Shown: positions 448 through 36,123 of the stretch, in pieces | Position numbering within the stretch: the first letter of the stretch is position 1 | How the letters are laid out: each line of letters opens with the position of its first letter | Assembly: GCA_030694365.1 (NCBI GenBank) | Contig: JAUXYM010000117.1 | Location: 1-55,793, forward strand | DNA length: 55,793 bases | Source: Nevskia sp. | GTDB lineage: Bacteria; Pseudomonadota; Gammaproteobacteria; Nevskiales; Nevskiaceae | Reading direction: 5' to 3' | Made by a program: the position numbers and the translations under genes | The notes under the pieces: model-generated | What the model saw: only the letters and a program-made list of their open reading frames with translations | What the model was told of the DNA's origin: nothing | Database searches by the model: none

Positions 448-505
448 ACGGCGCAGACACAAGCCTATGTGCTCGTCAGGCTGCCCAGCGGCGGTTCCTC
501 GAAAA

Positions 506-931
506 TTAGCTGCGTATCGGCCCCAGCGCTTCAACCCGCCGCGCCACCTCTTCCGCAACCCGGATCAGCGCCGAGAGTAGCGCCTCATCGACTTCGATCT
601 CGCCTTCATACTCGGCGAGATTCCGCTTGCGGTGCGCTTGATCCAGCACGCGCCATTGCTCGGTTGAAAGCTTCAGCGTGTGAGGGAGAGACTGAAACAC
701 GGTGTAGCGGTTTTCTGATCGGTAGCCGTGCCAGCGCAACGCTGCCAGTGAGCAGGCATGCGCCGAGTTGTAGGCGAGATCGAAACGACTTTCTGCGCTC
801 AGCGTCGTATTGCCGGCATCGGTCAGTCGCAGCTTGCCTGAACGCAACAGACCGGCAATCTCGGAATGCGACGCCGGCTCGGCCTTCAATTGCCGAATGC
901 GCACCAGATTATCGAGTTCAGGCAACGGCAC
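506..931 (-). CDS. HEPN-domain protein, likely toxin of a MNT/HEPN pair
   Basis: A 141-residue, mostly helical protein starting at GTG 931, overlapping the end of the upstream nucleotidyltransferase gene by 14 nt, which indicates translational coupling. Residues 49-71 (RFDLAYNSAHACSLAALRW onward) match the Arg-Phe-x-x-Ala-Tyr helix pattern of SAV_6107-type HEPN proteins, and a second helix carries HRKRNLAEY at 100-108. In classical HepT toxins the second helix carries an RX4-6H ribonuclease motif; here a Tyr stands where the His would be expected, so the protein may be a non-canonical or inactive member. Inference: partner of the adjacent MNT-fold protein, as toxin or as substrate of nucleotidylation. 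Family level is fairly secure; the activity is not. Confidence 0.75.
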   Translation of the reverse strand: MPLPELDNLVRIRQLKAEPASHSEIAGLLRSGKLRLTDAGNTTLSAESRFDLAYNSAHACSLAALRWHGYRSENRYTVFQSLPHTLKLSTEQWRVLDQAHRKRNLAEYEGEIEVDEALLSALIRVAEEVARRVEALGPIRS

Positions 932-1544
932 TGTCGCTGCCGATCAGGCTGAGGTGGTGGCCCTGCAGCACCTTGCTCAGGAAGTGGTTGCCGGCCAGCT
1001 TGCGGGTTCGAAATTCCCCGGACGTGTACAGCGTCGGATTGATTTTTCGGCTTGAACGCGTCTCCGCCCCGGCTAGGACGCGATAAAGGTCTTCCAGCGT
1101 CAGTTGATCGGAGACCACCATCACATCAATGTCGCTTCCAGCGTGCAGTTGGCCGCTTGCTGCCGAGCCATAGAGCATGGCCCAGGAGATTCGGTCAGCG
1201 ATCGGCATCAGCGCGTCGCGAACGATCTCTGGAATGCCGAGCGTCTTGCTGATGATGCTGCGCAGCTCAGAGAAGATCGGCGAGGCCTCGTTGGCCTGAT
1301 AGTGTTTCTGGTTGCCGCGCATCTCGGCCTTGACGATGCCGGCCGCCGCCAGTGATTGCAGCTCTCGCTGCACGGCACCGATGCCGGAGCCGGCCTGCCG
1401 GATCAGCTCGTTGGCGTAGAAGCTGCGCTCCGGCTGCCCGAGCAGGATCGAAAGCAGGCGCTGACGGACCTGCGGAAACAGCGCGGTCAGCAGACTCGTT
1501 ACGATCGGTTCATTCGTTCCCATTTCGGGGATCATCATACCCAT
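918..1544 (-). CDS. Winged-helix plus nucleotidyltransferase (MNT) protein, likely antitoxin
   Basis: A 208-residue two-domain protein. Residues about 12-95 form a winged helix-turn-helix of the ArsR/MarR kind (VRQRLLSILLG, then a recognition-helix stretch ending in RELQSLAAAGI). Residues 115-200 are a minimal nucleotidyltransferase with the diagnostic motif GSAASGQLHAGSDID (126-140) supplying the Gly-Ser and the Asp-x-Asp metal ligands. Fused wHTH-MNT proteins paired with a downstream HEPN gene form a known toxin-antitoxin class, where the MNT protein can nucleotidylate the toxin and the wHTH represses the operon. The start at ATG 1544 lacks a clear ribosome-binding site; an internal Met at 1523 is an alternative. 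Two operator-like repeats overlap the start region. Confidence 0.85.
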   Translation of the reverse strand: MGMMIPEMGTNEPIVTSLLTALFPQVRQRLLSILLGQPERSFYANELIRQAGSGIGAVQRELQSLAAAGIVKAEMRGNQKHYQANEASPIFSELRSIISKTLGIPEIVRDALMPIADRISWAMLYGSAASGQLHAGSDIDVMVVSDQLTLEDLYRVLAGAETRSSRKINPTLYTSGEFRTRKLAGNHFLSKVLQGHHLSLIGSDSAVA

Positions 1545-1553
1545 TTAGGGAAT
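1519..1553. promoter_or_regulatory. Paired operator-like repeats of the MNT/HEPN operon
   Basis: Two copies of CCCATTT(C/A)GGG(G/A)AT lie at 1519-1532 and 1540-1553, each itself a CCC-N5-GGG palindrome, with starts spaced 21 bp (two helical turns). They cover the start codon and first codons of the wHTH-nucleotidyltransferase gene, the expected place for an autorepressor to bind. Function as its operator is an inference. Confidence 0.6.
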
Positions 1554-1604
1554 GAAATCCAGATCACGAACGAGCTGGGCAATGCGGTTCAAGCAGCCTC
1601 TGAC

Positions 1605-3788
1605 TCAGAACAAATCCGCCGGATCAATATCCAGCGACCAGCGCAGCCGGGTCTTCTGGCCCAGGGCTTCGATCTCTGGCAGCCAGATGCCGAGCGTCCG
1701 GTGCAGCGCGGCGCGTGACACGCTCTTGAGCAACAACTGGCCGCGTTGATAGCCGGCGCGGCGGGCCATCGTCGCCGGGGCCGGGCCGAGGATTTCGACC
1801 TCGTCGGCCGCCGGCAACTGGCCGCGCAGCGTGCGCAGGAAGTTCATCACTTCGCCTTCGGTTCGCGCTTCGACTCTGAGCAGCGCCAGGCTGGCGAACG
1901 GTGGCAGGCCGAACTGTTTGCGCTCGGCCATCAGGCATGCGGCGAATGCCGGATAGCCGCGCTCGACCAGCAGGCGCAGCAGCGGATGGTCGGGCTGGTG
2001 GGTCTGCAGCAGCACTTCGCCGGGGGCATCGGCGCGGCCGACCCGGCCGGCAACCTGGACGACCATCTGGCCCATCCGTTCGATGGCGCGGAAATCGCTG
2101 CCGAACAGGGCCTGGTCGACATCGATCAGGCCGGCGAAGGCGAGGCCGGCGAAGTCGTGGCCCTTGGCCAGCACCTGGGTGCCGACCAGCAGCTTGACGT
2201 CGCCGCGCTCGACATCGGCGAGCAGTCGCGCGATCGCCGCGCCGCTGGACAGGCGATCGGAATCGAAGCGTTCGATCCGGTATTCGGGGAAGCGCATCCG
2301 CAGCGCGTCCTCGATCCGCTCGGTGCCCTGGCCGACCGGCACCAGCGTGCCGCCGCAGTCGCTGCAGGCCGGCGGGATCGCTTCGACATGGCCGCAGTGA
2401 TGGCAGGCCAGGCGCTTGCGGGCGCGATGGACGACCAGCCGGGCATCGCAGTTCGGGCAGGGCGTGACCGCGCCGCAGTCATGGCAGAGCAGCACCGGCG
2501 CGTAGCCGCGACGATTCAGAAACAGCAGCGCCTGATGGCCGGCTTCGAGCTGGCGCGACACCGCTTCGATCATCGTCAGGCTCAGGCCGTTGTCGAGCGG
2601 CGCGTGGCGCACGTCGAGCAGATGGATGCGCGGCGGTGCCTGGCTGCGAACCCGGCGCAAAAGGCGCAGATGCCGATAGCGGCCGGTCTCCGCGTTGTGC
2701 AGCGATTCCAGCGATGGCGTCGCACTGCCGAGCAGCACTGGCGCACCGGCCCGGCGGGCACGCAGCACGGCGACATCGCGCGCCTGGTAGCGCAGGCCGT
2801 CCTGCTGCTTGTAGGAGACGTCGTGCTCCTCGTCGACGATCACCAGTGCCAGCCGCGCCATCGGCACGAACACCGCCGAGCGGGTGCCGACGACGATGCG
2901 CGCGCGGCCGTCCCGTGCGGCCAGCCAGTTGCGGGCGCGTTCGGTTTCGCTCAAGCCGGAATGGAAGCTGGCGACGCCATCGCCGAAGCGGGCCTTGAAG
3001 CGCGCCGCGAGCTGCGGCGTCAGGCCGATTTCCGGCACCAGCACCAGCACCTGGCCGCCGGCGGCGAGCACGGTTTCGGTCAGCCGCAGATACAGCTCGG
3101 TCTTGCCGCTGCCGGTCACGCCTTCGAGCAGGCTGACCGCGAAACCAGCGCTCAAGCCTGCGTCGAGCGTGGTCAGTGCGCCGCTCTGTTCCTCGGTCAG
3201 CGGCAGGCGGGCTTCGAGCGGTGTGACCCGGTCCAGCGCACAGCGTTCTACCCAACCGCTGTCCAGCGCTTTCTTCAAGGCCGCCGCGGCATTCGGCAGC
3301 GCGGTGCGGACTTGCGCGCTGCTGCCTGGCGCCGGTGCCAGCAGATCGAGCAGCGCTTTCATCGCCGTCGAGCGAGCCGGCAAGCTCGCCATCGCTACAC
3401 GCCCAGCAGGCGTCAGCTGCAAGCCATCGGGCGGCGGCATGGTCACCGGTTCACCGCGCCGCAGCGGGCCGGGCAAGGCAGCGGCGATCACTTCGCCGAG
3501 CGGGTGCAGGTAGTAGTCGGCGACCCAGCGGCACAGCGCCAGCAGTTCGGGGCCGACCATTGGCCCGGTCAAGGCAACTTCGTCGAGTACGGCGGTGATC
3601 GGCCGCGGCTCGAACTCCGGGATTTCCACTTCGCGGACGGCGTCGACCACCACGCCGATCAGCTCGCGCCGGCCGAACGGCACCCAGACGCGCACGCCGG
3701 GCACCAGCGCAGTGAGCAGCGAGTCCGGCACCTCGTAATCGAAGCGCTGCCGCAAGGGCACCGGCACGGCGACTGTGACGAGCTTCAC
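1605..3788 (-). CDS. priA: Primosomal protein N' (replication restart helicase PriA)
   Basis: A 727-residue superfamily 2 3'-5' DNA helicase that recognises stalled forks and loads the replicative helicase at them. The N-terminal DNA-binding domain is seen in the RQRFDYEVP signature (14-22). Helicase motifs include GVTGSGKT (223-230, Walker A), DEEHD (319-323, motif II) and LLGSATPSLESL (motif III). Eight cysteines at 435, 438, 444, 447, 462, 465, 475 and 478 provide the two zinc sites characteristic of PriA. Length matches the family (about 730). It starts at GTG 3788; a perfect DnaA box lies 9 nt upstream. The next gene on the strand, the MNT/HEPN pair, begins about 60 nt downstream with its own operator. 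Confidence 0.97.
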   Translation of the reverse strand: MKLVTVAVPVPLRQRFDYEVPDSLLTALVPGVRVWVPFGRRELIGVVVDAVREVEIPEFEPRPITAVLDEVALTGPMVGPELLALCRWVADYYLHPLGEVIAAALPGPLRRGEPVTMPPPDGLQLTPAGRVAMASLPARSTAMKALLDLLAPAPGSSAQVRTALPNAAAALKKALDSGWVERCALDRVTPLEARLPLTEEQSGALTTLDAGLSAGFAVSLLEGVTGSGKTELYLRLTETVLAAGGQVLVLVPEIGLTPQLAARFKARFGDGVASFHSGLSETERARNWLAARDGRARIVVGTRSAVFVPMARLALVIVDEEHDVSYKQQDGLRYQARDVAVLRARRAGAPVLLGSATPSLESLHNAETGRYRHLRLLRRVRSQAPPRIHLLDVRHAPLDNGLSLTMIEAVSRQLEAGHQALLFLNRRGYAPVLLCHDCGAVTPCPNCDARLVVHRARKRLACHHCGHVEAIPPACSDCGGTLVPVGQGTERIEDALRMRFPEYRIERFDSDRLSSGAAIARLLADVERGDVKLLVGTQVLAKGHDFAGLAFAGLIDVDQALFGSDFRAIERMGQMVVQVAGRVGRADAPGEVLLQTHQPDHPLLRLLVERGYPAFAACLMAERKQFGLPPFASLALLRVEARTEGEVMNFLRTLRGQLPAADEVEILGPAPATMARRAGYQRGQLLLKSVSRAALHRTLGIWLPEIEALGQKTRLRWSLDIDPADLF

Positions 3789-5062: not shown

Positions 5063-5571
5063 TGACCGATCTGCCCTACCTCGCCGGCTACCCGCCGACC
5101 ACGCTCGATCAGGTGCGCAAGCTGATCGCCGAGCAGCGGCTGAGCGCGCATCTGGCGAAGAAGTATCCGGCGCGCCACGAGATCCAGTCGGACAGCGCGC
5201 TGCAGACTTACATCGGCGATCTGAAAAGCGAATACCTGCGCAGCGCACCGCCGCTGCACCGGGTTTGTTACGAAGGCGGCATGGAAGCGGTGCGCAATGC
5301 GCTCGGCGTGCACGTCCGCTCATCGCGCGTGCAGGGCGGCAAGCTGAAGATGAAGCGAGAGATTCGCATCGCCGCCGTGTTCCGCGAAGCGCCGCCTGAG
5401 TTCCTGGAAATGATCGCCGTCCATGAGCTCGCCCACATTCGCGAGCAGGATCACGACAAGGCTTTCTACCGCCTCTGCGAGCACATGCTGTCCGACTACC
5501 ACCAGCGCGAGTTCGATGCCCGGCTGTGGCTGACCGCGCGGCGGCTGGAGGTCGCGAAACCCCTAGGCTGA
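5062..5571 (+). CDS. YgjP-like zinc metallopeptidase domain protein
   Basis: A 169-residue cytoplasmic protein of the YgjP/WLM-like metallopeptidase family. Zinc ligands are visible in HELAHIREQDHDKAFY (121-136): His121 and His125 of HExxH with catalytic Glu122, and the downstream His131-Asp132 typical of the group. The N-terminal 60 residues are helical and charged. The gene overlaps the EamA transporter gene by one base, so the two are probably co-expressed, although the functional link is unknown. The stop codon lies inside a perfect 11-bp hairpin that also encodes the end of the convergent MFS gene. YgjP itself has no settled physiological role. Confidence 0.88.
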   Translation: MTDLPYLAGYPPTTLDQVRKLIAEQRLSAHLAKKYPARHEIQSDSALQTYIGDLKSEYLRSAPPLHRVCYEGGMEAVRNALGVHVRSSRVQGGKLKMKREIRIAAVFREAPPEFLEMIAVHELAHIREQDHDKAFYRLCEHMLSDYHQREFDARLWLTARRLEVAKPLG

Positions 5572-6789
5572 TGCCATGGCTGGCATCAGCCGCGCCTCGC
5601 GGAGCGGCAGGCAGATCAGCGCCGCGAACGACGCCAGGCCCATGTCGGCGATCCACATCCACGAGTAATCGCCGAACCGCGAGATGGTGACGCCGCCGAG
5701 CCAGGCACCGAAGAAACCGCCGATCTGGTGGCTGAGCACGGCCAGCCCGAACAGGGTGCCGAGGTAACGCGGCCCGAACATCTTGCCGACCAGCCCCGCA
5801 GTCGGCGGCACCGTGGCCAGGAAGGTGAAGCCGAGGCCGGCGGCGAACAGATAGACGCTGGTGGCGTCGCGCGGCGACAGCAGATACAGCGCGATCAGCG
5901 CGGCACGGCTCGCGTACATCGCGCACAGGATGGTCTTCAGCCGCATCCGCTGGCCGAGCCAGCCGGCCGCCAGACTGCCGGCGATGTTGAAGCCGCCGAC
6001 CAGCGCCAGTGCGGTTGCCGATACCGAAGCCGGCAGGCCGCAGAGCGCCACTTCGCCCGGCAGATGGGTGACCAGGAAAGCGACATGGACGCCGCAGGTG
6101 AAGAAGCCGAGATGCAGCAGCGCATAGCTCGGATCGCGCAGCGCAACGGCGAGCTGGGCTTTCAGGCCGGTGTCGTTGCTGCTGGCTTGGGTCGCTGCAA
6201 CGGGGGCTGCATCCGGCCGCCGCAAGGCACGAGCGAGCGGCAGGGTCAGCAGGGTCGACGCGGCCATCGCGTACAGCGCCATTGCCCAGCCGTAGGCAGC
6301 AATCAAGGCCTGCACGATCGGCGCGAAGACCAGCTGCCCGGCCGAGCCGCCGGCATTGATGAAGCCGGCCGCAAACGCCCGGCGTTCGGCCGGCAATTGC
6401 TGCGCGGTCGCGCCGATCAGGATCGAGAACGCCCCGGCCCCGGCACCGGCCGAAGTCATCAGGCCGAGGCAGAACAGCAGGCCGAATTCCGAGCTGAACA
6501 TCGGCGTCAGCATCAGGCCGGCCGCCATCAGCAGGCCACCAAGCACCACCACGCTGACCGAGCCGCGCTGATCGGCAATGGCACCGAACAAGGGTTGCGC
6601 GAGGCCCCAGACCAGTTGCCCGACGGCCAGTGCAAAGCTGATCGCGACGATGCTCTGGCCGGTGCTGGCGCCGATCGGCTGCATGAACAGGCCCAGCGAC
6701 ATCCGCGCGCCCATGGTCAGCGCCAGGATCGCGGCGGCCGCCAGCATCAGCGTCCAGGCGGCGCGGGCAGCAGTGGTCGAGGACGTCAT
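5563..6789 (-). CDS. MFS transporter
   Basis: A 408-residue protein with twelve hydrophobic segments in two bundles of six, typical of the major facilitator superfamily. The helix 2-3 loop reads GAIADQRGSVSVVVLGG, matching the G-x-x-x-D-R-x-G-R-type signature with Gln and Ser variants. The overall pattern (GARMSLGLFMQPI at helix 1, a Gly-rich AGAGAGAFSILIG in helix 4, and GLVGKMFGPRYLGTLFGL in the second half) is that of monocarboxylate/oxalate-formate-type antiporters. Cargo is therefore possibly a small organic acid, but this is inference. It lies 91 nt downstream of the giant 1615-residue gene on the same strand and could be co-transcribed with it, although a weak hairpin intervenes. Its 3' end overlaps the convergent metallopeptidase gene by 9 nt. 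Confidence 0.92.
   Translation of the reverse strand: MTSSTTAARAAWTLMLAAAAILALTMGARMSLGLFMQPIGASTGQSIVAISFALAVGQLVWGLAQPLFGAIADQRGSVSVVVLGGLLMAAGLMLTPMFSSEFGLLFCLGLMTSAGAGAGAFSILIGATAQQLPAERRAFAAGFINAGGSAGQLVFAPIVQALIAAYGWAMALYAMAASTLLTLPLARALRRPDAAPVAATQASSNDTGLKAQLAVALRDPSYALLHLGFFTCGVHVAFLVTHLPGEVALCGLPASVSATALALVGGFNIAGSLAAGWLGQRMRLKTILCAMYASRAALIALYLLSPRDATSVYLFAAGLGFTFLATVPPTAGLVGKMFGPRYLGTLFGLAVLSHQIGGFFGAWLGGVTISRFGDYSWMWIADMGLASFAALICLPLREARLMPAMASA
5566..5591. terminator. Hairpin at convergent gene ends (bidirectional terminator candidate)
   Basis: GGCTGATGCCA pairs perfectly with TGGCATCAGCC across a 4-nt TGGC loop. It covers the stop codon of the metallopeptidase gene and the final codons of the convergent MFS gene. 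No T-tract follows on either strand, so intrinsic termination would be weak; the position still suits transcript-end formation. Confidence 0.45.
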
Positions 6790-6880: not shown

Positions 6881-9800
6881 TCACAGCTCGTCGCCGACCT
6901 CTGGCTGGTAGCCGAGCACGTACAGCTCGCGGGCGAAGACCAGGCGTTCGGCGACCTTCGGCAGCCGCACGCCATTGCCGGTGCCGCTGCTGATCACTTC
7001 CTGATCGTCGCCGAGATGCCGTTCGTACTCGCGCAGTACCAGCCGGGCGCGGCTGCCGCGTGCCAGCGGCGGCAGCGCGATGCGGACGTGGAACAGCAGA
7101 TCGCTGCGGCGGATCGGCAGGCGCAGCATCGGCGCCTGGATGGCTTCGACGAACAGCCGGTCGCGGCGCTCGGCGACCACGGCGGCGAATGCCCGAGCCG
7201 GCGGCGCGACATCGTCGACTCGCGCTTCGACATCGGCGCTGACCGGCGTGACGTCGCTGGCATCGAGCCAGTCGAGATCGGTCGCGAAGTTCGAGGTCTG
7301 CAGCTGCAGTGTCACTTCCATGCGATTGCGGCTGCTGCCGAGCAGCTTTTCGTTGAGCAGCGCGCCCCAGAGTGCGAAGTCGAACGGCTCCATGTCGTTG
7401 CCGACCGGCCCGCGCGCGGGTGCCACGCCGTAGACCTTGATCTCGTGAATGCGCTCCTCGCGGGCCTGGACCTGGATCTCGCGCAGCGGCGCGATCTGCG
7501 CGAACGGCGCCAGCACCACCGGCGACAGCTCGCAGCCGGATACCGCCCGCGGCTGCAGCCGCACCAGCGCCAGGCGCACGAACGGCGTGTAGCTGCTGCC
7601 CGGTTCGATCTCGATGTCGGCGTACCACTGGTCGCGCAGCGCGTCGAAATGGACGCGATGACCGACCACCGTGAAGACCTGATCGCCGGCTTCGGCCAGC
7701 GGTGCCTGCACGGTGATGACGCCGGCCGGGAACGCCTCCGGCGTGATCCGTGCGCGCGGCAGGGTCGAGGCGAACAGCGGATCGCTGCCCCACTGGCTGA
7801 CGAAGGGCTCGATGCGCTCGAACAACTCGGCAAACGGCCAGCCGAGATCCAGCGGCACGCCGGGCAGCACCACACCGAGCAGTTCGCCGTCGCCGCTGGA
7901 GAACCAGGGGCGGTGCAGGTAGACGCGCAGGCCATTGCCGCGCCGCACGCAGGTGAACTGCGCGTCGTTGCCGGACTCGGTCCAGCGGAAGGTCGGGATC
8001 ACCGCGTCGAGGCGCGGCGTCACCGGCCGCACCGTTGCCGGCACGATGCGGCCCGGCGCTGGCGCCAGCCCGGAATTGAGCAGCGCAGCACCGGCGTTGA
8101 CCAGGCCGGTTGCTACCTCGCCATTGCGCGCCGGCAGCTCGTTCCAGTAATCGGCGGGCAGCGCCAGCGGCGAGCCGGCGAACACCTCGCCGGTCTGCTG
8201 CAGCAGCTCGGGATCGGCGGTGATCGCCAGCGGCAGGTATTCGCGGAAGCGGGTGCTGGCGCGCAGCCGGTAGTGCAGCAGGCGGAACTTGCCATCGCCG
8301 AACTCGTGGCGGTAGTGCGGCACCTGGTCGGGCTTGTCGCCGTTGCCGAGCTCGGAAAACACCACCTGGCGCTGCGGCTCGTCGCGATCCAGCGGCGGCT
8401 GTGCGATGCCGACCTCGCGCAGCTGCGCGCTCATCCGGCGGCGGCCCAGCGGCGTGCCCGGGCCGTTGTCGATCCACTCGATCCATTCGCCGAGCACCTC
8501 CAGCTTGCCGGTGCTGCGGCCATGCAGGCGTACCTGGGTGCGCCCGGCGAGGTCGGCGTAGGTGAGCCCCGGCTCTCGAACGATGTCGAGGCCCTCGAAC
8601 ACGGGCTTGCAGATCGGCTTCTGCGTGGCATGGACCAGGGTCATCAGCCGGTCCGGCGTCAGCATCCAGTGGCAGCCGACGCTGGCCTGCTCGACGGCGA
8701 GATCGGCGGCCGCAGCGCCTTGCTGCTCGGTGATCCAGGATGGCAGCGCCAGATGCTCGCGGAAGCGCTCGTTGAGCACCGAGGCATAGCGCACCGGTGC
8801 CACCTCGCCCTTGCGCAGGAACACTCGCAGCAGGCGCCGCTCGCCATCCCATTCGGGCAGCCGCGGCGGCAGCTCGGCGTGGACGTCGCAGGGATCGATC
8901 GCCAGCTCTTCCGGCTGCTCGACGATCGCGATCCGGCAGCCCTGCACCTCGGGCCAGCCACGCGCGGGATCGACCGCATTCGGCACTACCAGCACGTACT
9001 GGACGCGCTCGCTATGGTGATCCGGCACCCGGCGCACATACAGGCTGTTGCGGCGATCGAGCCACCACAGCGTGTCGCCGCCGACCGCCTCGCGATCCAG
9101 CGCCTGCAGCGTGTCGCGGGTGATGCCGGGCAGGTCGCGGAACGCGATCGCCACCGCCAGCGGATCCGGCAGATACGGCGTCAGCAGTTGCTCCTCGGTG
9201 TGGATCACGTAGTCGCCGGGTTCGAGGCGATAGCCCTCGGGCGGCGTCTCGGTCAGCGGCAGTTCGGGCGAGCCGATCTGACCGGCTTTCGGTGGGGTGA
9301 TCCTGAGCACCGGGGCACCGCCCTGATACAGCGTGCCGGCTTCCTTGGCGACGATGGTCTCGTAGGCTTCGCGGATCTCGGCCGGCGTGCCGCCGCTGAA
9401 GGCGTGCTCGAAAGCGCCGTGCTGCTCGGCCATCAGCTGCGCCACCTTCGGCGGCACCAGGTGGCGCTGGTTGACGCTGTCGTAGGCGAAGCCGCTCAGC
9501 TTCGGATCGTTGTCGCGATAGGCGGCTTCCCGCGCCAGGTAATCGTTGCTCGACAGGCCGGCATCGCTGCGGATCACCAGACGCTCCACCGACTCGCCTT
9601 CGGAAATGCGCTGCTTCAGCGCCAGCGCCGGCGGATCGATCGGCTCCAGGCGCTGGTAGGTGATCGCCTGGGTCTGCTGGGCGTCCATGGCCAGCGAGCG
9701 ATCGTCGAGCGACAGGCTGTTGCCGGCGAGGTCGACGACCCGGGCGCGCATCCGGTAGCGGTTGCCGAAACGCAGCCGGGGCAGCGTGCCCTTCAGCGAT

Positions 9801-11728
9801 TCGGCGACGCTGAGCAGCGGGCTGTGCCGGGGCAGCACGTCGATGTCGGGGTCGTGATCGGCAACCTGTTCCTCCTGGATCTGGCCGTGCTCGTTGCGGG
9901 CGACGATGCGCCGCCCGGGGCGCGGCACCACCAGGCTCCAGCCGGTCCAGCGGAACACTGCCGAATGCAGGTAGTGATCCTCGGGCGTGTTCGCCGGTGC
10001 GGCCTGCAAGGTCTTCGGCGGTGCGCTGCTGGTGCTGGCGCCTTTGACATAGCCCTCGTCGACGACCTGCGCGAACTCGAGGCCATCGTCGGCGAGGCGG
10101 TAGCTGACCTGCCGCTGGCACAGCGAGCACCACTGGCCCGGCCGCTGCGAACCTGGCCGCGGCAGTTCCTGGATGTCGACCCGATAGCCGTGCAGCAGAT
10201 CCTCGATGAACAGCACGGCCTGGTCGAAGGCCGGCGGCTGCTGAGCGAGCGCCGGCTGGGCCAGTGCCTGATTCTTGAGCCGGGCGGCATGGGCCAGATT
10301 GGCCAATGCTTCGGCGCGGCCATTGCGCAGCAGGGCAATGCCGCCCGAACGCAGCACCGCTACCGATTCCTCGGTGCTGGTCGTGTAGCTCAGCTCGCCC
10401 GGCTTCTCCAGCGCCTGGGCATCGTTCGACGAGGCACCGGCATGCTTGAGGTGACGCTCCAGCGCCAGCGCCGTGCCCAGGGTTTTCAGCGCTGCGCCGT
10501 CGACATCGATCTGCGCCAGGTTGTAGGTCTCCGGCACCGGCAGGCCCTTGTCGGTCGCCGGCTTCGGCTCGCCGACCTCGGCCAGCCGCATCAGGCCGTC
10601 GCGATGCTCGGCCGGCACCCGGGTGGCGGTGACGAAGCGATCGTCGATCAGCTCGAAGGCGGTGAACGGCGTGGTATCGACGGCCGGCCCGCCCAGCAGC
10701 TCGCGCCGCACCTGCAGCCGGAGCCTTGCCGACAGCCGGCCGTTGACCAGGCCGCGCGCCCGGTCGCGCAGGCGGCCGCCGTCGCGGACCACGACATCGA
10801 CGATCAGGCCCAGCGAGCGCAGCACGCTCGGCGCATCGGCGAGCAGCGCGATGCTGCCGTGGAAGTCGATATCCGGCTGCTCGACCTTGCCGGGCTGGTG
10901 GTCGGGATCGGCGTAGCGCAGGTCCTCGGCCTTGAGCTGCTCGGGCGCAGGACCGACCTTGGCGCGGCGCGGGTCGTCACGCTTCAGCTCCGGCCGCGAA
11001 TAGAAACGGTTGGCGAGCGCGAAGGCGTAGTGGGCATCCGAGCTGTAGACGTTGCCGAGTTGCGCCGGCCGTCGCGCCGGCAGCGCCCGCAGCAGGCGCT
11101 GGCTGTTGGCGCCGACCGAGCGGCCGACATCGAGCCGGCCGTCGATGCCGACCACAGCACCCACCGGCTCGCCGTAATGCTCCAGTTTCAGGTCTAGCGA
11201 ATTGGCCAGCACGCTCGGCGTCTTGCGGCCGGGATGCTCGCCGAGGCGTACGCCGAGATCGCCGAGCAGGCCATGCAGGCCGGTACGCCGCGGCCCGAAC
11301 AGCGATGGCCGGTCCAGGCCATCGCGCGCGGCCAGTTCGGCATAGCGGCGCTTCAGGGTCGAGATCACCGCATCGGCGGGATAGTCGTGCAGCTCGTGCG
11401 CCGACATGTCCTTGAACGCGAACGGCTGCACGAACAGGTCGCGCGGGAACATGCGCGCCCACAGCGCCGAGCCCCGGTCGAGATCCAGCGGCGGCTCCGG
11501 CCGCAGCCGGAACGGCTCCGGTTCACCGTCGACCAGCAGCTCGAAGCGGGCCCTGCTGACCGAGGTCGGCCAGTCGTGCCAGTCGCGGTAGGTCTCGGCG
11601 CCGAGGAATTGTTCGCTGCTGTCAGCGGGGTCGGTGAGCCGAGGCGATACGACGATCGACAGGCGCAGCTCGCCTTCGTCGGTATAGCCGTTCGGCAGGG
11701 CGGTCCAGATGATGGTTTGGCGAGCCAT
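6881..11728 (-). CDS. Giant 1615-residue protein of unknown function
   Basis: One uninterrupted frame starting at ATG 11728, with GGAA about 9 nt upstream. No signal peptide or membrane helix is apparent. The sequence is rich in Pro, Arg, Leu and Asp and looks like many short beta-strand modules. It opens with a hydrophobic strand (QTIIWTALPNG). Midway, FGNRYRMRARVVDLAGNSLS recalls immunoglobulin-like or fibronectin-like strands. A single CSLC pair may bind metal. The C-terminal third has conspicuous segments such as HRPWFSSGDGELLGVVLPG and ADIEIEPGSSYTPFVRLALV. I do not recognise a catalytic motif or a named domain. It follows a 1474-residue gene after 34 nt, so the two are probably co-transcribed and may act together. 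The composition matches the host genome, so there is no sign of recent transfer. A large structural or secreted-complex component is possible but unproven. Confidence 0.9.
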   Translation of the reverse strand: MARQTIIWTALPNGYTDEGELRLSIVVSPRLTDPADSSEQFLGAETYRDWHDWPTSVSRARFELLVDGEPEPFRLRPEPPLDLDRGSALWARMFPRDLFVQPFAFKDMSAHELHDYPADAVISTLKRRYAELAARDGLDRPSLFGPRRTGLHGLLGDLGVRLGEHPGRKTPSVLANSLDLKLEHYGEPVGAVVGIDGRLDVGRSVGANSQRLLRALPARRPAQLGNVYSSDAHYAFALANRFYSRPELKRDDPRRAKVGPAPEQLKAEDLRYADPDHQPGKVEQPDIDFHGSIALLADAPSVLRSLGLIVDVVVRDGGRLRDRARGLVNGRLSARLRLQVRRELLGGPAVDTTPFTAFELIDDRFVTATRVPAEHRDGLMRLAEVGEPKPATDKGLPVPETYNLAQIDVDGAALKTLGTALALERHLKHAGASSNDAQALEKPGELSYTTSTEESVAVLRSGGIALLRNGRAEALANLAHAARLKNQALAQPALAQQPPAFDQAVLFIEDLLHGYRVDIQELPRPGSQRPGQWCSLCQRQVSYRLADDGLEFAQVVDEGYVKGASTSSAPPKTLQAAPANTPEDHYLHSAVFRWTGWSLVVPRPGRRIVARNEHGQIQEEQVADHDPDIDVLPRHSPLLSVAESLKGTLPRLRFGNRYRMRARVVDLAGNSLSLDDRSLAMDAQQTQAITYQRLEPIDPPALALKQRISEGESVERLVIRSDAGLSSNDYLAREAAYRDNDPKLSGFAYDSVNQRHLVPPKVAQLMAEQHGAFEHAFSGGTPAEIREAYETIVAKEAGTLYQGGAPVLRITPPKAGQIGSPELPLTETPPEGYRLEPGDYVIHTEEQLLTPYLPDPLAVAIAFRDLPGITRDTLQALDREAVGGDTLWWLDRRNSLYVRRVPDHHSERVQYVLVVPNAVDPARGWPEVQGCRIAIVEQPEELAIDPCDVHAELPPRLPEWDGERRLLRVFLRKGEVAPVRYASVLNERFREHLALPSWITEQQGAAAADLAVEQASVGCHWMLTPDRLMTLVHATQKPICKPVFEGLDIVREPGLTYADLAGRTQVRLHGRSTGKLEVLGEWIEWIDNGPGTPLGRRRMSAQLREVGIAQPPLDRDEPQRQVVFSELGNGDKPDQVPHYRHEFGDGKFRLLHYRLRASTRFREYLPLAITADPELLQQTGEVFAGSPLALPADYWNELPARNGEVATGLVNAGAALLNSGLAPAPGRIVPATVRPVTPRLDAVIPTFRWTESGNDAQFTCVRRGNGLRVYLHRPWFSSGDGELLGVVLPGVPLDLGWPFAELFERIEPFVSQWGSDPLFASTLPRARITPEAFPAGVITVQAPLAEAGDQVFTVVGHRVHFDALRDQWYADIEIEPGSSYTPFVRLALVRLQPRAVSGCELSPVVLAPFAQIAPLREIQVQAREERIHEIKVYGVAPARGPVGNDMEPFDFALWGALLNEKLLGSSRNRMEVTLQLQTSNFATDLDWLDASDVTPVSADVEARVDDVAPPARAFAAVVAERRDRLFVEAIQAPMLRLPIRRSDLLFHVRIALPPLARGSRARLVLREYERHLGDDQEVISSGTGNGVRLPKVAERLVFARELYVLGYQPEVGDEL

Positions 11729-11762
11729 GGGAGTTGTTCCGGTTCAGGTCGGACAGACAGCG

Positions 11763-14700
11763 TCAGGCGAAGGCTTCGCAGTAGGTCCGCCACGCGTATT
11801 GCGTGTCGTCGTCGAGCACCACGCCGTCATCGGGGCCGAGCAGGGCCGCGAAGCTCGGGTCGCCGTTGGAGCCGGCGAAGGTGCGCTTGGCGTGGATGCC
11901 GACCGAGGCCGAGAAGATGAACAGATGGATCTCGACGGTGATCGTCGCCTCGCCTTCGCACTTGCCGGAGTCCGGGAAGTAGTTCAGCGCCAGGTACAGC
12001 TCGATCGAGGCCGAGATCAGGCCGAGCACATCGACCTCGCCACCCATCCGCAGGTAGCCGGTCAGCTGCGCTTCCTCGTCGCTGCCCGGCTTCTTGCCGA
12101 TCCGGAAGTAGATGCCGGCCATCACGTGGACGCTGCCGCTGGCCACCGCGAAATCGACGGCCAGGCAGGCGCCGAACTCGAAGCTGGCTTCCAGCAACTG
12201 CACGCCGTGCGGATCGATGACGATGCCGAAGAAGCCGCCGCCGCCGAGGAAGGACACGGTCAGGTTGAACGGCTGGTCGCGCGTGCAGAAATTGAAGCGC
12301 ACCGCCAGCGGCTGGCCGATGAAGGGCACCGTGAAGCCGGCACCGAGGCTCAGGTTGGTCAGGCTCATGACGCCGAGCGTCAGGTTCGGCAGCGCCATCG
12401 AGAAGCTGGCGTCGACGCCCTGCTCGGTGATGCTCAGCGCCGGCGGATCGGAGAAGCCGTCGAGCGGAATCAGGTCGCGCAGGGTTTCGACGAAGCTCAG
12501 CACGCCGACGAAATGGATGCCGCCCATGCGCACGTCGACATCCATCTTGCCGTCGCCGCTGACCTTGAGGCCGATCTTCTCGAAAGCGATCTCGATGAAC
12601 GCCGCGTCGCCGCCGAACAGGCAGAGATCGAAATTCGACAGCGAGCAGTAGGCATTGACCTTGGCATCGCCGCCGCTCTTCTTGACCCGCGCCTCGACGC
12701 CGACCACGAAGCCGCGCTTGTCGTGCGGAGTGAACAGCGGCGGCGAAGCACTCGGCCAGGGCTTGATCTCCGGATGCCAGTCGAAGCGCAGCACCAGTTC
12801 ATCGCTGATCAGCGATTCGATGATCGGCAGCAGCTCATCGCGCGCCGCGGTGATCTTGCCGACCAGGTCGAGCAGGCTCAGCGCGGTCTGGCGCAGCGCG
12901 TCCGGCAATAGCGTCATCGCCTTCAGGCGCTGCTTCAGATCCGGCAGCCGCGCATCGATGTCGGCGAGCAGAGGTGCCAGATCCTCGATCTTTGGCGCCG
13001 CGGGATTGTCCTTGTTCAGCGCCGCTTCGATGCCGTTGATGAAGTCCTCGGCCTTGCCTGCCGTGGCCTTGGCCTGGCCGAATAGCGCCGGCAGCGTCTT
13101 GATGCTGGCCAGCAGCGCTTCGGCCTGATGGATGCGCAGGCGCACCGCGTCGATCTGCTGGCGAGCCACCGCCTGCACGCCGGCCGACAGTGGCTGGCCG
13201 GCACCGGGGAAGCCGGGCGGCACGGCATTGCCAAGCGTGGCGAGGCGAGCTTCGAGCGTGGTCCGCAGCAGCGCCAGCTGGTCGAGCAGCGACGTCAGCG
13301 ACAGCGGCGGCGGTGCTGCATCCGAGTCCAGCGCGGCGATCGCATCGGCCACCGTCTTGGCGGTGCTGCTGGCCAACGTGATCAGGTTTTCGACCTGGCT
13401 GCGTGTCGCTGCCGTTTCGGCGTCGAGCAGCGCCAGCTGTGCCTTGGCTTCGCGGAACGCCCGTTCGATGCCCTGGCGGATCGCGGCCTCGATGGCCTGC
13501 CTGGCGGCGTCGATCAGCAGCTGGTCGAGATCACCGAGTTCGCCGAGCCGCGCGATCAGCGCCGCGCCTTCGTTGGCAGCATCGGCGACGAAGCGCGGCA
13601 GCTTCGGCAGGCTGCCGCCGAGATTGCCGGTGACGCCTTCGATCAGCGCGCCGAGCGGCAGGCAGCCGAGCAGCAGCGGCCCGTTGCTCGCGAAGAAATC
13701 AGCGGGATTGAAGTTGCCGCCGGCGAACTGGTCGGCGGCCCCGGCGACCGGCCCGGTCAGATAGGACAGTGCACTGGGCCGCAGATTCGGCTGCACCAGG
13801 CCGCCGGAGCGGTTGCCCTGGGCGGTGAAGTCCAGTGCCGGGCCGCCGATGATCTTCGCGTAGACGCCACCGGCGCCGTAGCCCTTGTCGCGCTGCAGGT
13901 AGCCGAGGTCGAACTGGATCGTCGTGCCGCCGCCCGCTCCGCCCAGCCCGGCCATCGCGGGCACCCGGATCTTCGCTTCGCGCACCTGCGGATAGGTGTA
14001 CGGCGGATCGCGGTAGGGCAGATCGCTGGTGTGGCCATCGAACTCGATGTTGATCACCTCGGCGTCGGTGTCGCCGGCCTTCTGCGGCGGCTCGATCAGG
14101 GCAGTGAAGGCGAAGCGGACCGACTGGTTGCGGCACTCGGCGATGCGCGTGGCCTGCGGCTCGGCCATCCAGGCAGCGTGCGCCGTCGCGAACGGCTTCT
14201 GGTCTTCGTAAGGCTGGTCCTTGAACAGATCGTTGCCGATGAAGATCGATGGCAGCTCGAAATCCAGCCACTGGCCGTTGAGGCCGAGGGCCCGGTAGTG
14301 GAACCGGAACGGCTCGCCGGCGACCACCGGCCAGAACAGCCGCGGGCCATTTTTCTCGATCTCGGATTTTTCCGGCGGCTCGATATCCGGCGTGGTGCGG
14401 GTCAGCAGCTCGACGCGGACGAACGGGAAGCGGCGATGCAGGCGGACGTCGGCACCGACCTCCGGCACCGTCACCGGCGGCAGCGACGTGGCGTCCTGCT
14501 CGTATTCGCGCACCGGCTGGCGGCAGACCAGGAACATGCGCTGGCGAACATAGGCCGCGTTGCCCGGCTCGTCGTGATGGAAGCGCCGCTCGCTGACCTT
14601 GACCAGCGACACCTGATGGCCGAACGGAAACAAATAACCCTTGTAGACGACGCGGACGTAGTGGTCGCGGCCCTGGGTGGCCTGATGAACCCATTCCTCG

Positions 14701-16187
14701 ACCGCCAGCCCCGGCGGCGGATCCCAGGCACCGCGGGCATCGAGCCAGCCACCGAGCGCCGATAGCATCAGCTGCTTCGCCTGGATCGGATCGTGGCTGG
14801 CCTTGCGCAGCCGGAAGTTGCTGCTCTGGTGGACGATGTTGAAGCGGTCGCGATCGTCCAGCGTCATCCGGAACGGCAGGTTGTAGGTCAGCGGCAGGGG
14901 CTGGCCTTTGGGACCATCGCCGACCTGCCAGTGGTCGGTGAAGCTGTCCGGCAGCGACTTCGGCCCCAGGCGCGCCCAGACCGCGCGCACTGGCGCCGTC
15001 GTCGAATCCGGGTCGGCCGCGAGTTCGGTGCGCCACAAGGCCGTGTGGCCGCTGAGCGGGTTGTGCGAAGGCCGCAGCTCATGGCGGAAGCGGCCGTCCT
15101 CGTTCGGCGACAGGATCAGTCGGAACGGCAGTTCCAGCGCCGTCTGGTTGGCTTCCGGATTCTTCGGCAGCGGCGGACGCAGCCACTCCGCGAGCGGCTT
15201 GCTGACGGCGTTGGCCAGGTTCAGTGCCGTGACCGCAGCGATGCCGCCGGCGGTATCGAAACGGGTGACCGTCGCCGGCTTCGTCATCAGTTGCGTCCCC
15301 GGCTTCGTCACTGGGGCCGCGATGTCACGGACCGAGCCTGGCGCCGCTGCGCGGTTGATCGGCGTGCCGATCTCGGCACGCCGGCGCAGCAGGCCGGATG
15401 CTGCCGCACCAAGGCTGCTGACCAGCTGCTGGTTGCTCAGGCTCTGGGCCAGAATCGCGGCCTTGCTGACGTTCGACAGTTGGGCGAACGCCATGCGGGC
15501 GCTGGCCGACAGGCGGAAATCCCGCTTCGGCTTGGTGTGGATCGTGTTACGCCGCGCGTTGCTGGCGACGTTCAGCGGCAGTACCCGGCAGGCTGCGAGA
15601 ATGCCAGCCAGGTTGTACTCGATCGCATCGATGCCGGCGGCCTTGAGCTTGGCCGCATCGTGCCGGAACACCAGCCGGCTGCCTTTCGACAGCCGAGAAC
15701 GGATCGGCGGCGGATCGGGATTCTCGCTGCCGTTCGGCGTGTCGCTGGCCGGCCCCGATGGCGGCTGGTTCGGCTGGACCGGGCGTGTCGCATGCGCGTC
15801 CTTGGTCGGGAGATCGACGCGCAGCTCGAAGAACACCTGCTCGGCGACCGCTTGCGGCCCGAAGTGCAGCACCAGATAGCTCGGCCCGGTGCCGGCCGGC
15901 ACCAGCGCCGCGCCGCTGCCCGCCAGTTCCGGCCGGGCCTGTGGCTGCAGGTTGATCAGCTCGATGTGCAGCGACAGGAAATCGGCCGAGCGCAGCACCC
16001 ACTGGCGGAACGGCCGCGGCTGGAACGGGCGCAGCGGCGCGCGTTCGAGGACGAGGTCGCCGCGCAGTTCGGGCTGCTTCGCGAGCAGATCGCCGAGCTT
16101 GAGCAGCGACTGCTGCGCGGCGGACAGCCGGGCGCCATTGACGTCATCAACCAAGGAAGGACCGCCGAGCCGACTGCGTCTGGCCAT
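11763..16187 (-). CDS. Giant 1474-residue protein with helical middle and beta-rich C-terminus
   Basis: Starts at ATG 16187 with a good GGAGAA ribosome-binding site. Three zones are visible. Residues 1-860 are mixed, with Pro-rich linkers near 130-165 and beta-strand-like repeats. Residues about 860-1130 are strongly helical and Ala/Leu/Gln-rich (for example ARQAIEAAIRQGIERAFREA), likely coiled coil. Residues about 1135-1440 are regular amphipathic and glycine-rich beta strands (VSFLGGGGFFGIVIDPHGV, SGSVHVMAGIYFRIG, LTGYLRMGGEVDVLG), like a beta-sandwich or groove-shaped sheet. There is no signal peptide. The strand pattern is the kind seen in large uncharacterised families such as DUF6603, which I offer only as a hypothesis to test. 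It is the first gene of a two-gene unit with the 1615-residue protein. Confidence 0.9.
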   Translation of the reverse strand: MARRSRLGGPSLVDDVNGARLSAAQQSLLKLGDLLAKQPELRGDLVLERAPLRPFQPRPFRQWVLRSADFLSLHIELINLQPQARPELAGSGAALVPAGTGPSYLVLHFGPQAVAEQVFFELRVDLPTKDAHATRPVQPNQPPSGPASDTPNGSENPDPPPIRSRLSKGSRLVFRHDAAKLKAAGIDAIEYNLAGILAACRVLPLNVASNARRNTIHTKPKRDFRLSASARMAFAQLSNVSKAAILAQSLSNQQLVSSLGAAASGLLRRRAEIGTPINRAAAPGSVRDIAAPVTKPGTQLMTKPATVTRFDTAGGIAAVTALNLANAVSKPLAEWLRPPLPKNPEANQTALELPFRLILSPNEDGRFRHELRPSHNPLSGHTALWRTELAADPDSTTAPVRAVWARLGPKSLPDSFTDHWQVGDGPKGQPLPLTYNLPFRMTLDDRDRFNIVHQSSNFRLRKASHDPIQAKQLMLSALGGWLDARGAWDPPPGLAVEEWVHQATQGRDHYVRVVYKGYLFPFGHQVSLVKVSERRFHHDEPGNAAYVRQRMFLVCRQPVREYEQDATSLPPVTVPEVGADVRLHRRFPFVRVELLTRTTPDIEPPEKSEIEKNGPRLFWPVVAGEPFRFHYRALGLNGQWLDFELPSIFIGNDLFKDQPYEDQKPFATAHAAWMAEPQATRIAECRNQSVRFAFTALIEPPQKAGDTDAEVINIEFDGHTSDLPYRDPPYTYPQVREAKIRVPAMAGLGGAGGGTTIQFDLGYLQRDKGYGAGGVYAKIIGGPALDFTAQGNRSGGLVQPNLRPSALSYLTGPVAGAADQFAGGNFNPADFFASNGPLLLGCLPLGALIEGVTGNLGGSLPKLPRFVADAANEGAALIARLGELGDLDQLLIDAARQAIEAAIRQGIERAFREAKAQLALLDAETAATRSQVENLITLASSTAKTVADAIAALDSDAAPPPLSLTSLLDQLALLRTTLEARLATLGNAVPPGFPGAGQPLSAGVQAVARQQIDAVRLRIHQAEALLASIKTLPALFGQAKATAGKAEDFINGIEAALNKDNPAAPKIEDLAPLLADIDARLPDLKQRLKAMTLLPDALRQTALSLLDLVGKITAARDELLPIIESLISDELVLRFDWHPEIKPWPSASPPLFTPHDKRGFVVGVEARVKKSGGDAKVNAYCSLSNFDLCLFGGDAAFIEIAFEKIGLKVSGDGKMDVDVRMGGIHFVGVLSFVETLRDLIPLDGFSDPPALSITEQGVDASFSMALPNLTLGVMSLTNLSLGAGFTVPFIGQPLAVRFNFCTRDQPFNLTVSFLGGGGFFGIVIDPHGVQLLEASFEFGACLAVDFAVASGSVHVMAGIYFRIGKKPGSDEEAQLTGYLRMGGEVDVLGLISASIELYLALNYFPDSGKCEGEATITVEIHLFIFSASVGIHAKRTFAGSNGDPSFAALLGPDDGVVLDDDTQYAWRTYCEAFA

Positions 16188-16405: not shown

Positions 16406-18049
16406 TCAGCGTTTGAGGAAGCACTTCAGGTCATCGAGCGTGTTGGCATCGGGGGGCGTTTTATCGGTACGCCAGCGAGCAATCCTTGGAAAGCGCAGCG
16501 CGATACCGGCCTTGTGCCGCGACGACGCCTGGATGCCCTCAAACGCGATCTCGAAAACCTGTTCGGCATCGACGCTGCGCACCGGGCCGAACTTCTCCCG
16601 CGTGTGCTGCTTGATCCAGTGATCCATCTTGGTCAGTTCGGCATCGGTCAGGCCCGAATAGGCCTTCGCCACCGGCAGCAAAGCGCCTTCGCCGGACAGC
16701 GGACCGGCCCAGACCGCGAGCGTGTAATCGGTATAGAGATTGGCCCGCCGACCATGACCGGCCTGGGCGTAGACCAGCACGCAGTCGATGCTCATCGCGT
16801 CGAGCTTCCACTTCCACCAGGTGCCGCGACGGCGACCGGCCTGATAGCCGGAATCGAACCGCTTCAGCATCAGGCCTTCGACGCCGCGTTCGCGGGCTAC
16901 TGCGCGTTGTGTGGCGAGGTCGTTCCAGTCCTCGGCCATCAGGCATTCGGACAACTTCAGCCGAGGTTCTGCGAACTGCGCGACGATCATTGCGAGCTGC
17001 GCGCGCCGTTCGACCAGCGGCCGCAGGCGCCAGTCCTCGCCCCGCCATTCGAGCAGGTCGTAAGCGACGAACGCGACGGGTGCCTCGGCGAGCAGTTTCT
17101 TGCCGACGGTCTTGCGGCCGATGCGGGTCTGCAGCTTGGCGAACGACAGCACCTGGCTGCCGTCGTGAGCGAGGATTTCGCCGTCGAGCACGGTGCCGTC
17201 CGGCAGTTGCGCCGCAACGGTTTCGATTTCCGGGAAGCGGCCGTTGAGCAGTTCCTCGCCGCGCGACCACAAGAAGCTCTGCCCGGCGCGGCGAATCAAC
17301 TGGCCACGAATGCCGTCCCATTTCCATTCGGCGAGCCAGTCGCCGATCGGCCCGAGCCCGGACGGCAGGCCGTCCTGCCAGACGCTGTCCGGCGCGTCCT
17401 CTACAGGACTGGCGAGGCAGAACGGATAGGGCTGCGAGGGATGCGCTTCGGTCGTGCCCGGTGCGAGCAGTGCTGCGAACGCGTCTGCCGAAGGCTGCCA
17501 GTGGCCGCCTTGTTGGGCCATGAGTCGTTGCGCGATCAAGCTGTCGGGCAATCCGGCATGAGCCGCCAGCGCGCGGGCCGCGAGACCGGACGACACGCCG
17601 ACGCGCAGCGAGCCGGTCAGCAGCTTGTTGAACAGGAAGCACTCATCCAGCGGCAGCCCGGCCCAGACTTCGATCAAGGCCGCGCGCTGCTCATCCGGCT
17701 CGCGATCGCGCAAGGCCAGCAGCCAGGCCACCCATTCGGCGAGGCCGCGCTCGATGGCTGCAGGCCGATCAGCGCGATCGAGCAGCAGTGCCAGGGTTTC
17801 GGCGAGATCGCCGACATGGGCGTAGCAGTCCTCGATCACTGCGGGCGACAGGCCGGTGGCATCGCCGATCCAGGCCCGCAACTGGCTCGGCCCGATCAGG
17901 CGTTTCAGCCGTTGCCCGGTCAGGAAGTACAGGCCCCAGGCGGCATCGGCGGGCGGCGTTTCGGCGAAGTAGGCGCGCATTGCCTCGACTTTCGCGGACG
18001 TCGCGCGAGTCTCGTCCAGCCGCGCATAGAGGGCGGCGAAACGCTTCAC
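16406..18049 (-). CDS. ATP-dependent DNA ligase (cisplatin-damage-response / Lhr-associated type)
   Basis: A 547-residue protein. The adenylated lysine lies in EWKWDGIRGQ (Lys243, KxDG motif I). Further nucleotidyltransferase motifs include DGEIL (motif III region), VAFVAYDLLEW, GVEGLMLKR (motif IV) and WWKWKLDAMSIDCVLV (motif V). The N-terminal 200 residues form the helical DNA-binding domain of long bacterial ATP-dependent ligases, and the C-terminal part is the OB fold. This class commonly sits with an Lhr-family helicase and a beta-lactamase-fold exonuclease in a repair operon; neither is present here. It is followed on the strand by the giant-protein operon and preceded by a GFA-family gene 12 nt upstream. 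It joins nicked DNA using ATP and is probably accessory to an NAD-dependent LigA encoded elsewhere. Confidence 0.93.
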   Translation of the reverse strand: MKRFAALYARLDETRATSAKVEAMRAYFAETPPADAAWGLYFLTGQRLKRLIGPSQLRAWIGDATGLSPAVIEDCYAHVGDLAETLALLLDRADRPAAIERGLAEWVAWLLALRDREPDEQRAALIEVWAGLPLDECFLFNKLLTGSLRVGVSSGLAARALAAHAGLPDSLIAQRLMAQQGGHWQPSADAFAALLAPGTTEAHPSQPYPFCLASPVEDAPDSVWQDGLPSGLGPIGDWLAEWKWDGIRGQLIRRAGQSFLWSRGEELLNGRFPEIETVAAQLPDGTVLDGEILAHDGSQVLSFAKLQTRIGRKTVGKKLLAEAPVAFVAYDLLEWRGEDWRLRPLVERRAQLAMIVAQFAEPRLKLSECLMAEDWNDLATQRAVARERGVEGLMLKRFDSGYQAGRRRGTWWKWKLDAMSIDCVLVYAQAGHGRRANLYTDYTLAVWAGPLSGEGALLPVAKAYSGLTDAELTKMDHWIKQHTREKFGPVRSVDAEQVFEIAFEGIQASSRHKAGIALRFPRIARWRTDKTPPDANTLDDLKCFLKR

Positions 18050-28307: not shown

Positions 28308-28556
28308 GCCCGCCCCCAATGCCAACTGCAAACTTCAAGCTGCTTCCACCTTGTCATGTCGTGGTACCAATCGCGGTACGCATTACGGCGGTTGCTCGCG
28401 AGCGTAGTCAGCTTGCCCCAGTGCGGCAAGAGCAATCCCGCCTTCCCGTTGACGCGGCCGTTGCGGTAACTTTGCCGGGCCCTGCGCCGGTTCGTCCGCG
28501 ATCCGTCATCGGGGCAGTCCATAACCACAATGAAACCCTGCTAGGAGACAAGACGC

Positions 28557-32182: not shown

Positions 32183-32220
32183 AACAGGAAAGCCGCTCGA
32201 AAGCGGCTCTTCTGTTTCAG
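32179..32220. terminator. Bidirectional terminator between convergent genes
   Basis: CTGAAACAG and AAGCCGCT are mirrored by AGCGGCT and CTGTTTCAG, giving a two-part stem around a CGAAA-type loop. It contains the stop codon of the membrane-protein gene and of hsdS. A strong shared transcription end. Confidence 0.75.
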
Positions 32221-34382: not shown

Positions 34383-34423
34383 TCGCCTGCCTCGCTATTG
34401 AGACAGCCATCGAAAAAATGAAC

Positions 34424-34515
34424 CGTCATGCCCGCGAAGGCGGGCATCCAGTTTTCGCAGCTTAAAAGCACGGCGCTTCGCGCCGCTCTGGATTCCCGCC
34501 TTCGCGGGAATGACG
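34424..34515. repeat. REP-like palindromic repeat, copy 2
   Basis: CGTCATGCCCGCGAAGGCGG and, in mirror, CCGCCTTCGCGGGAATGACG, with CCAG/CTGG adjacent and an inner CGGCGCTTCGCGCCG hairpin. It fills the gap between hsdM and hsdS, inside what should be one operon, and could attenuate hsdS relative to hsdM. Same family as copies near 23.9 kb and 53.1 kb. Confidence 0.85.
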
Positions 34516-34530
34516 ATGGGTGAATTGGCA

Positions 34531-35997: not shown

Positions 35998-36123
35998 GGG
36001 TCGGGCGGCTTTACGGTGTTCCGTAATCGGTGGATAATTTGCGGCAAGCTGGACTGGAAACTTCCGGTCGGCGCTGGGCTCCTGGGATTTCCCGGGGGCC
36101 CTTCGCATTTCTGGAGGCGGATT

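Follow-up and report, generated by a model that had tools for sequence, protein, structure and literature searches.

A two-gene module of giant proteins in Nevskia sp. and other bacteria, possibly encoding a heteromeric carrier of apolar cargo

Two adjacent genes of Nevskia sp., here called A and B, encode giant proteins that none of Pfam, NCBIfam, PHROGs, PADLOC and PDB sequences assigns to a family. The pair is kept in the same order across phyla while its other neighbours change, and this argues strongly that the two proteins form an obligate complex not characterised before. We tentatively favour the reading that A and B are obligate subunits of one complex that would bind a hydrophobic cargo and would be exported in a folded state by the Tat pathway in many relatives. 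The window mentioned below is the whole stretch of DNA that was analysed (55,793 nucleotides), and its features are as follows.

11763..16187, minus strand: gene A, first of the pair (1474 aa; ORF and homologues)
6881..11728, minus strand: gene B, second of the pair (1615 aa; ORF and homologues)
11729..11762, minus strand: gap of 34 nt between A and B (ORF positions)
11874..12800, minus strand: A residues 1130-1438, predicted C-terminal long-strand meander with one apolar face (mapped from the model of a relative)
12804..13478, minus strand: A residues 904-1128, helical insert resembling a coiled coil, which the compact modelled relatives lack
9683..9802, minus strand: B residues 643-682, Ig-like edge (LPRLRFGNRYRMRARVVDLAGNSL), sub-threshold Pfam match to Big_3_2 (E 0.069)
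16406..18049, minus strand: ATP-dependent DNA ligase, upstream edge of the occupied site, outside the system
5563..6789, minus strand: MFS transporter, downstream edge of the occupied site, outside the system

The first-pass annotation had described two adjacent minus-strand genes of 1474 and 1615 residues lying 34 nt apart, and both the coordinates and the open frames were borne out, with A upstream of B. Protein homologues of A and B were found in Pseudomonadota, Actinomycetota, Chloroflexota and Nitrospirota. When the window copy was compared with the second Nevskia copy (genome G014) using NG86, dN and dS were 0.168 and 0.51 for A (partial, 1266 codons) and 0.203 and 0.563 for B (1587 codons); as judged from these values, both genes are under purifying selection between the two Nevskia copies. 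Further, the codon-position GC of A (0.69/0.47/0.88) and B (0.75/0.47/0.88) was similar to that of host genes. Thus, homology across phyla, purifying selection and host-like codon-position GC indicated that A and B are true genes, and ruled out spurious chance frames of 70% GC DNA. A plus-strand ORF that overlaps B (7016-11197, 1393 aa) is most simply explained as a shadow frame. The codon-usage distance to a pool of window genes was 0.22 for A and 0.29 for B; the ligase and the MFS gene, themselves members of the pool, had distances of 0.25 and 0.45, respectively. Between the two Nevskia genomes, A and B were 73-76% identical, compared with 95% for PriA, 97% for YgjP and 79% for the MFS protein, and by this measure A and B evolve faster than their neighbours in Nevskia. 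Nothing informative emerged when the pair was scanned for promoters, terminators and Rfam families.

Neither protein matched anything above the curated thresholds of Pfam, NCBIfam or PHROGs, and no PADLOC match was obtained for either. The sole match of the pair to PDB sequences was that of A to 8i3e (E 3e-4, residues 1006-1106), which is coiled-coil-type noise. When nine A relatives and nine B relatives were searched against Pfam, just two sub-threshold matches appeared, Big_3_2 being found in one of the nine B proteins. A profile of A (52 rows) matched helical-bundle and coiled-coil PDB sequences alone, all inside the helical insert, and a profile of B (48 rows) matched an odorant-binding protein over 85 positions (E 0.003), which we take as a chance match. 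These searches agree with the earlier remark that the proteins belong to no recognised family, in that no strong match appeared in Pfam, NCBIfam, PHROGs, PADLOC or PDB sequences. Further, no paper on the pair surfaced in the open-licence PMC literature.

The pair was rare around its host: with the own genome included in every count, it was detected in 2 of 18 Nevskia genomes, 2 of 61 relatives, 2 of 321 genomes of the class (B as the single query) and 6 of 398 genomes of the phylum (C-terminal profile of A). It was also present in 16 of 150 Streptomyces genomes and in 10 of 41 Achromobacter genomes (14 were tallied, four of which were short N-terminal matches alone), and weak matches to A were detected in the plasmids CP021832, CP050515 and CP125297. 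We then compared the site between the ligase and the MFS gene with six ligase stretches from genomes that lack the pair. The ligase-MFS gap was approximately 0.2 kb or less in G015, G016 and G008 and approximately 1.3 kb in G002 and G010, and in G013 no MFS gene lay within 9 kb of the ligase. This occupied and empty site, together with the low frequency among the Nevskia genomes, shows that the two genes form an accessory cassette in Nevskia, inserted at a fixed site. The pair had been described as host-like in composition and long-resident; the composition does fit the host, and the polymorphism of the site and the presence in just two Nevskia genomes qualify the idea of long residence. A phage origin was rejected, as no relative was found in viral contigs (few peptide patterns per scan) or in phage records; a BFVD fold search gave weak tail-fibre and porin-like matches alone. 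In Achromobacter pulmonis (L046 2169-6881, genome G416), A seems to be present as partial copies in tandem; we regard these as an assembly artefact because they share 100% identity and break off at runs of N.

To define the pairing, we scanned 84,980 species genomes with a single pattern and obtained 71 loci, a number that is a lower bound because one pattern was used. B followed A in 70 of the 71 loci, and in the other (L086) the contig ends inside A. The same was true of all eight plasmid loci first fetched (Rhizobium, Diaphorobacter, Cupriavidus, Streptomyces and Sinorhizobium), although L013 and L084 among the plasmid loci are one plasmid counted twice, and the order was also found in eight further loci (L005 of genome G092, L111, L112, L114 and L123-L126). 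Some copies were broken: B is split into two frames in L114, A into two frames in L008, and both genes are in pieces in L064 and L087. In the plasmid loci L113, L115 and L116, a truncated B stood alone and A was not found in the stretch; these B pieces look like remnants on transposase-rich plasmids. In the very distant L127, A lies beside an ORF of 1948 aa that is not matched by the standard B profile. The identities of A and of B in all pairs of 48 rows were closely correlated (Pearson r 0.969, Spearman 0.889), and by this comparison of sequences A and B diverge in step. The first-pass annotation would have been refuted by homologues that do not co-occur, a result that did not appear: wherever A was intact and the contig did not end, B was found with it. 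The pairing, the order, the co-divergence and the absence of other partners suggest that A and B work together, probably as one large complex.

No third gene recurred throughout the family when the flanking ORFs were clustered. The largest clusters were of an ABC transporter type (14 loci, annotated via one member) and a LysR-containing cluster (12 loci), and the smaller ones were mostly common to Achromobacter genomes. Pfam families were each present in at most three of 145 flanking genes taken from 59 loci (best 25 of 155 families) and PADLOC families in at most one, several of the PADLOC matches being to generic domains. A proposed link to contractile injection loci was not supported, as sheath, baseplate or tube genes did not recur alongside the pair among the best 25 of 155 flanking families.

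Individual loci carried genes of their own. L123 has the order A, B, M35 peptidase, tatA and DUF4403, the operon continuing at 456-3237 with the M35 peptidase, tatA and a lipoprotein-like DUF4403 gene. An M35 peptidase that is 30% identical to that of L123 lies a few genes behind B in Ruegeria, an astacin lies behind B in R. phaseoli, and an annotated M23 peptidase lies behind the B remnant of L113. Of 12 genomes or records tested, one had DUF4403 next to the pair, and G890 has two DUF4403 genes, neither of which is near its pair. A passage in PMC6791001 argues that DUF4403 is a tandem TULIP lipid-binding fold. In L126, a 385-aa ORF behind B, just below position 4690, resembles by eye a trypsin-type protease with TAASC for the usual TAAHC. 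On an Agrobacterium vitis plasmid (L114 14688-26504), dpd genes for 7-deazapurine DNA modification lie directly behind the frame-broken B. In one Streptomyces clade, a gene of its own of approximately 365 aa lies just upstream of A (L077 6723-7811; also L078, L080, L081 and L082); it has no Pfam match, and an SxxK stretch (SASLLK) recalls, by eye, serine hydrolases of the penicillin-binding type.

Using family alignments, we modelled compact relatives that are 33% (A) and 32% (B) identical to the window proteins. The model of A (Luteimonas saliphila, 1023 aa) had a pLDDT of 79.3 and a pTM of 0.67, and that of B (Amycolatopsis, first 1200 aa) a pLDDT of 87.1 and a pTM of 0.77. In the A model, the last 300 residues are predicted to form long antiparallel strands, those of the C-terminal meander being 10-18 residues long. 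Family-averaged hydropathy was then compared between the two faces of each strand at least nine residues long. From residue 693 onward, 11 of 14 such strands, and from residue 818 onward all nine, differed between their faces by at least 2.5 Kyte-Doolittle units. In the rest of the A model, none of 10 strands reached this value (maximum 2.01), and in the B model 4 of 14 did. The B model is a string of beta-sandwich-like domains. The strand-rich, modular look noticed at first reading was thus reproduced in models of relatives.

In Foldseek searches, the top match of A was LptD (E 7e-4), the sole match under E 0.001 among the 50 listed; it was followed by P47 (1.6e-3), FimD, OccK10, microsomal triglyceride transfer protein (2.9e-3) and porins. 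What these weak top matches have in common is a long sheet; several handle lipids, and porins score equally well. P47 and OrfX3 matched A weakly (E 1.6e-3 to 7e-3, TM 0.06-0.14, rmsd >20 A), and OccK10 matched A with a probability of 0.97, a TM of 0.27 and an rmsd of 22 A. B had 25 matches under E 0.001, mostly to Ig/Fn3 and complement-type chains such as complement/A2M; a mastigoneme protein was also matched (E 7e-8, TM under 0.1). Among the 50 matches listed for each protein, no superposable structure was found (TM at most 0.27, rmsd mostly >20 A). We conclude from the models that A is predicted to contain a one-sided long sheet and B to be a string of sandwiches, and we do not conclude membership of a fold family.

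We next examined the N-termini for export signals. A Tat-like signal was recognised, by pattern and by eye, on A in 15 of 85 loci, mostly on deep branches (L012, L014, L015, L067, L071, L073, L074, L076, L083, L111, L112 and L123-L126); L010 also has a pattern match, which precedes the likely start of A and was left out of this count. No Tat-like signal was detected on B in a pattern scan of 78 loci, or by eye at the B N-termini of L111, L112 and L123-L126. Both Nevskia copies begin MARRSRLGGPSLVD, in which we saw no signal peptide, and a hidden Tat leader upstream of the window A was rejected, as none was found in 16 in-frame codons or in the other two frames. The earlier statement that the proteins lack a signal peptide therefore holds for the window and fails for these 15 loci. 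In a tree of 68 A C-termini, the Tat label (14 rows, L074 being left out) required 6 changes, compared with 13.0 in shuffles, and the 40-row clade that holds the window copy had no Tat-like signal (0/40); the tree has many long branches, and its root and deep joins are unsure. Where A has no Tat-like signal (L045 to L082), it often begins with a basic Ala/Lys/Pro-rich tail in Pseudomonadota or a Gly/His/Pro-rich one in Streptomyces.

A TatA-like pattern occurred at three places in 90 loci (1,874,901 bases), all of them behind B. It was directly behind B in L014 (S. meliloti, annotated TatA) and in L115, where B is truncated and A was not found in the stretch, and one gene intervened in L123. 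That the Tat-like signal is confined to A, and that some loci have tatA close by, suggests that the lineages concerned export the two proteins together in a folded state. According to a passage in PMC4273604, signal-less subunits are exported by Tat hitchhiking in PaoABC, and Tat substrates span 20-70 A in diameter.

On the reading that we tentatively favour, a self-contained two-gene module would encode both subunits of a carrier. The C-terminal sheet of A, or a half-closed groove formed by it, would shield a hydrophobic cargo (a lipid or another apolar polymer), and the sandwich string of B would serve as a strap or clamp around A or as a surface-docking part. In the many distant relatives in which A has the Tat-like signal and B does not, we propose that the pair is assembled in the cytoplasm and exported folded, with B riding on A as a hitchhiker and with the help of its own tatA in some loci. 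In the window's clade, where the signal is absent, the complex would stay inside or leave by another route. The apolar face of the sheet and the single DUF4403 neighbour point weakly to a hydrophobic cargo, and the apolar face could equally be the interface between A and B. It is doubtful that the pair represents a new bacterial class of carrier for apolar cargo that crosses the membrane folded as a two-chain particle in many lineages and that the window's clade uses without a signal.

The alternatives differ mainly in where the pair would act. The sandwich-domain string of B, its Foldseek matches to Ig/Fn3, complement/A2M and mastigoneme chains, the Tat-like signals in relatives and the secreted peptidases behind B in some loci would also fit an adhesin-like extracellular or cell-surface scaffold, in which B is a spacer, A an anchor and there is no cargo. 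This is conceivable and somewhat doubtful, since we noticed neither near-identical domain repeats nor an anchor or sorting motif, the window's clade has no export signal, and the sharply one-sided C-terminal strands of A would be left unexplained. An intracellular complex in the window's clade, such as a scaffold, the coat of a storage body or a large regulatory assembly, with export elsewhere as the derived state, would agree with the lack of Tat-like signals in all 40 rows of that clade and with its basic, low-complexity N-termini. We regard it as unlikely, because the signals occur on most deep branches and their 6 changes fit loss better than gain, albeit on a tree with an unsure root and long branches.

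The patchy distribution, partly on plasmids, and the weak resemblance of A to P47/OrfX3, which are proteins of toxin clusters, recall a secreted toxin or an injected effector pair. Such a role is very improbable, given that family searches gave no catalytic or pore motif and no Pfam match to P47, and that no immunity-like or injection-system neighbour appeared among the best 25 of 155 flanking families. Slighter still is the chance of an anti-phage defence module, even though the pair is patchy, mobile and composed of two genes, the window also encodes a TIR-TPR protein and a type I restriction system, and L111 and L114 lie near restriction genes and dpd genes, respectively. Neither A nor B matched PADLOC, and the PADLOC families of the flanking genes were neither recurrent nor, in several cases, specific; an identity as a known anti-phage defence system was rejected for lack of any known defence protein family (PADLOC).

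The favoured carrier reading has partial parallels in known systems. TULIP proteins (P47/OrfX, DUF4403) have long curved sheets with an apolar interior and a wrapped long helix. Foldseek matched A weakly to P47 and OrfX3, among others, and DUF4403 occurs in one relative's operon; however, Pfam gave no TULIP match in A or nine A relatives, TM was about 0.1, A is 2-4 times larger, and its C-terminal sheet holds just one short helix in place of the wrapped long one. AsmA/TamB, LptD and other beta-groove lipid transporters resemble A in their long antiparallel strands, which are apolar on one face, and LptD is the top match of A. In contrast to them, A and B are not matched by Pfam, neither a Sec signal nor a transmembrane anchor was noticed, no repeating groove units were shown in either protein, and the pair occurs in Actinomycetota. 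An outer-membrane beta-barrel was rejected because the window copy has no signal and the family extends to Streptomyces and other Actinomycetota. In the Tat hitchhikers PaoABC and HybOC (PMC4273604), one co-encoded subunit has the Tat signal and its partner does not, an arrangement found for A and B in relatives and not in the window copy; PaoABC and HybOC are, however, cofactor enzymes, and no cofactor motif was found in A or B. Multi-domain Ig/Fn3 proteins (adhesins, A2M/complement folds) resemble the B model in being strings of beta-sandwich-like domains, but no domain family of B was above threshold and no whole chain superposed. A giant adhesin was not supported, as profiles revealed no repeated Ig/Fn3 domains in nine B proteins, sub-threshold Big_3_2 in one of the nine being the only trace.

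If the carrier reading is true, Tat would have to move a very large particle, and this could be the reason for the private tatA in some operons. The L112 pair comprises approximately 5200 residues (3312 + 1900), and the rhizobial and Ruegeria plasmid pairs comprise 4800-5200 residues, or roughly 530-570 kDa at 110 Da per residue. If a Tat-tagged A carries an untagged B out, these pairs would provide a natural test of the size limit of folded Tat cargo and of the role of an extra TatA. Should the apolar sheet hold lipid, the pair would represent an additional, stand-alone kind of lipid handler.

Elsewhere in the window, the minus-strand gene at 26139-28331 encodes a TIR domain followed by TPR repeats (Pfam TIR_2, ThsB_TIR) and is likely a defence-type gene. 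A type I restriction-modification system lies on the minus strand at 32217-39251 (Methylase_S at 32217-34382, EcoEI-type R at 36879-39251), in a stretch of lower GC of about 0.58-0.63.
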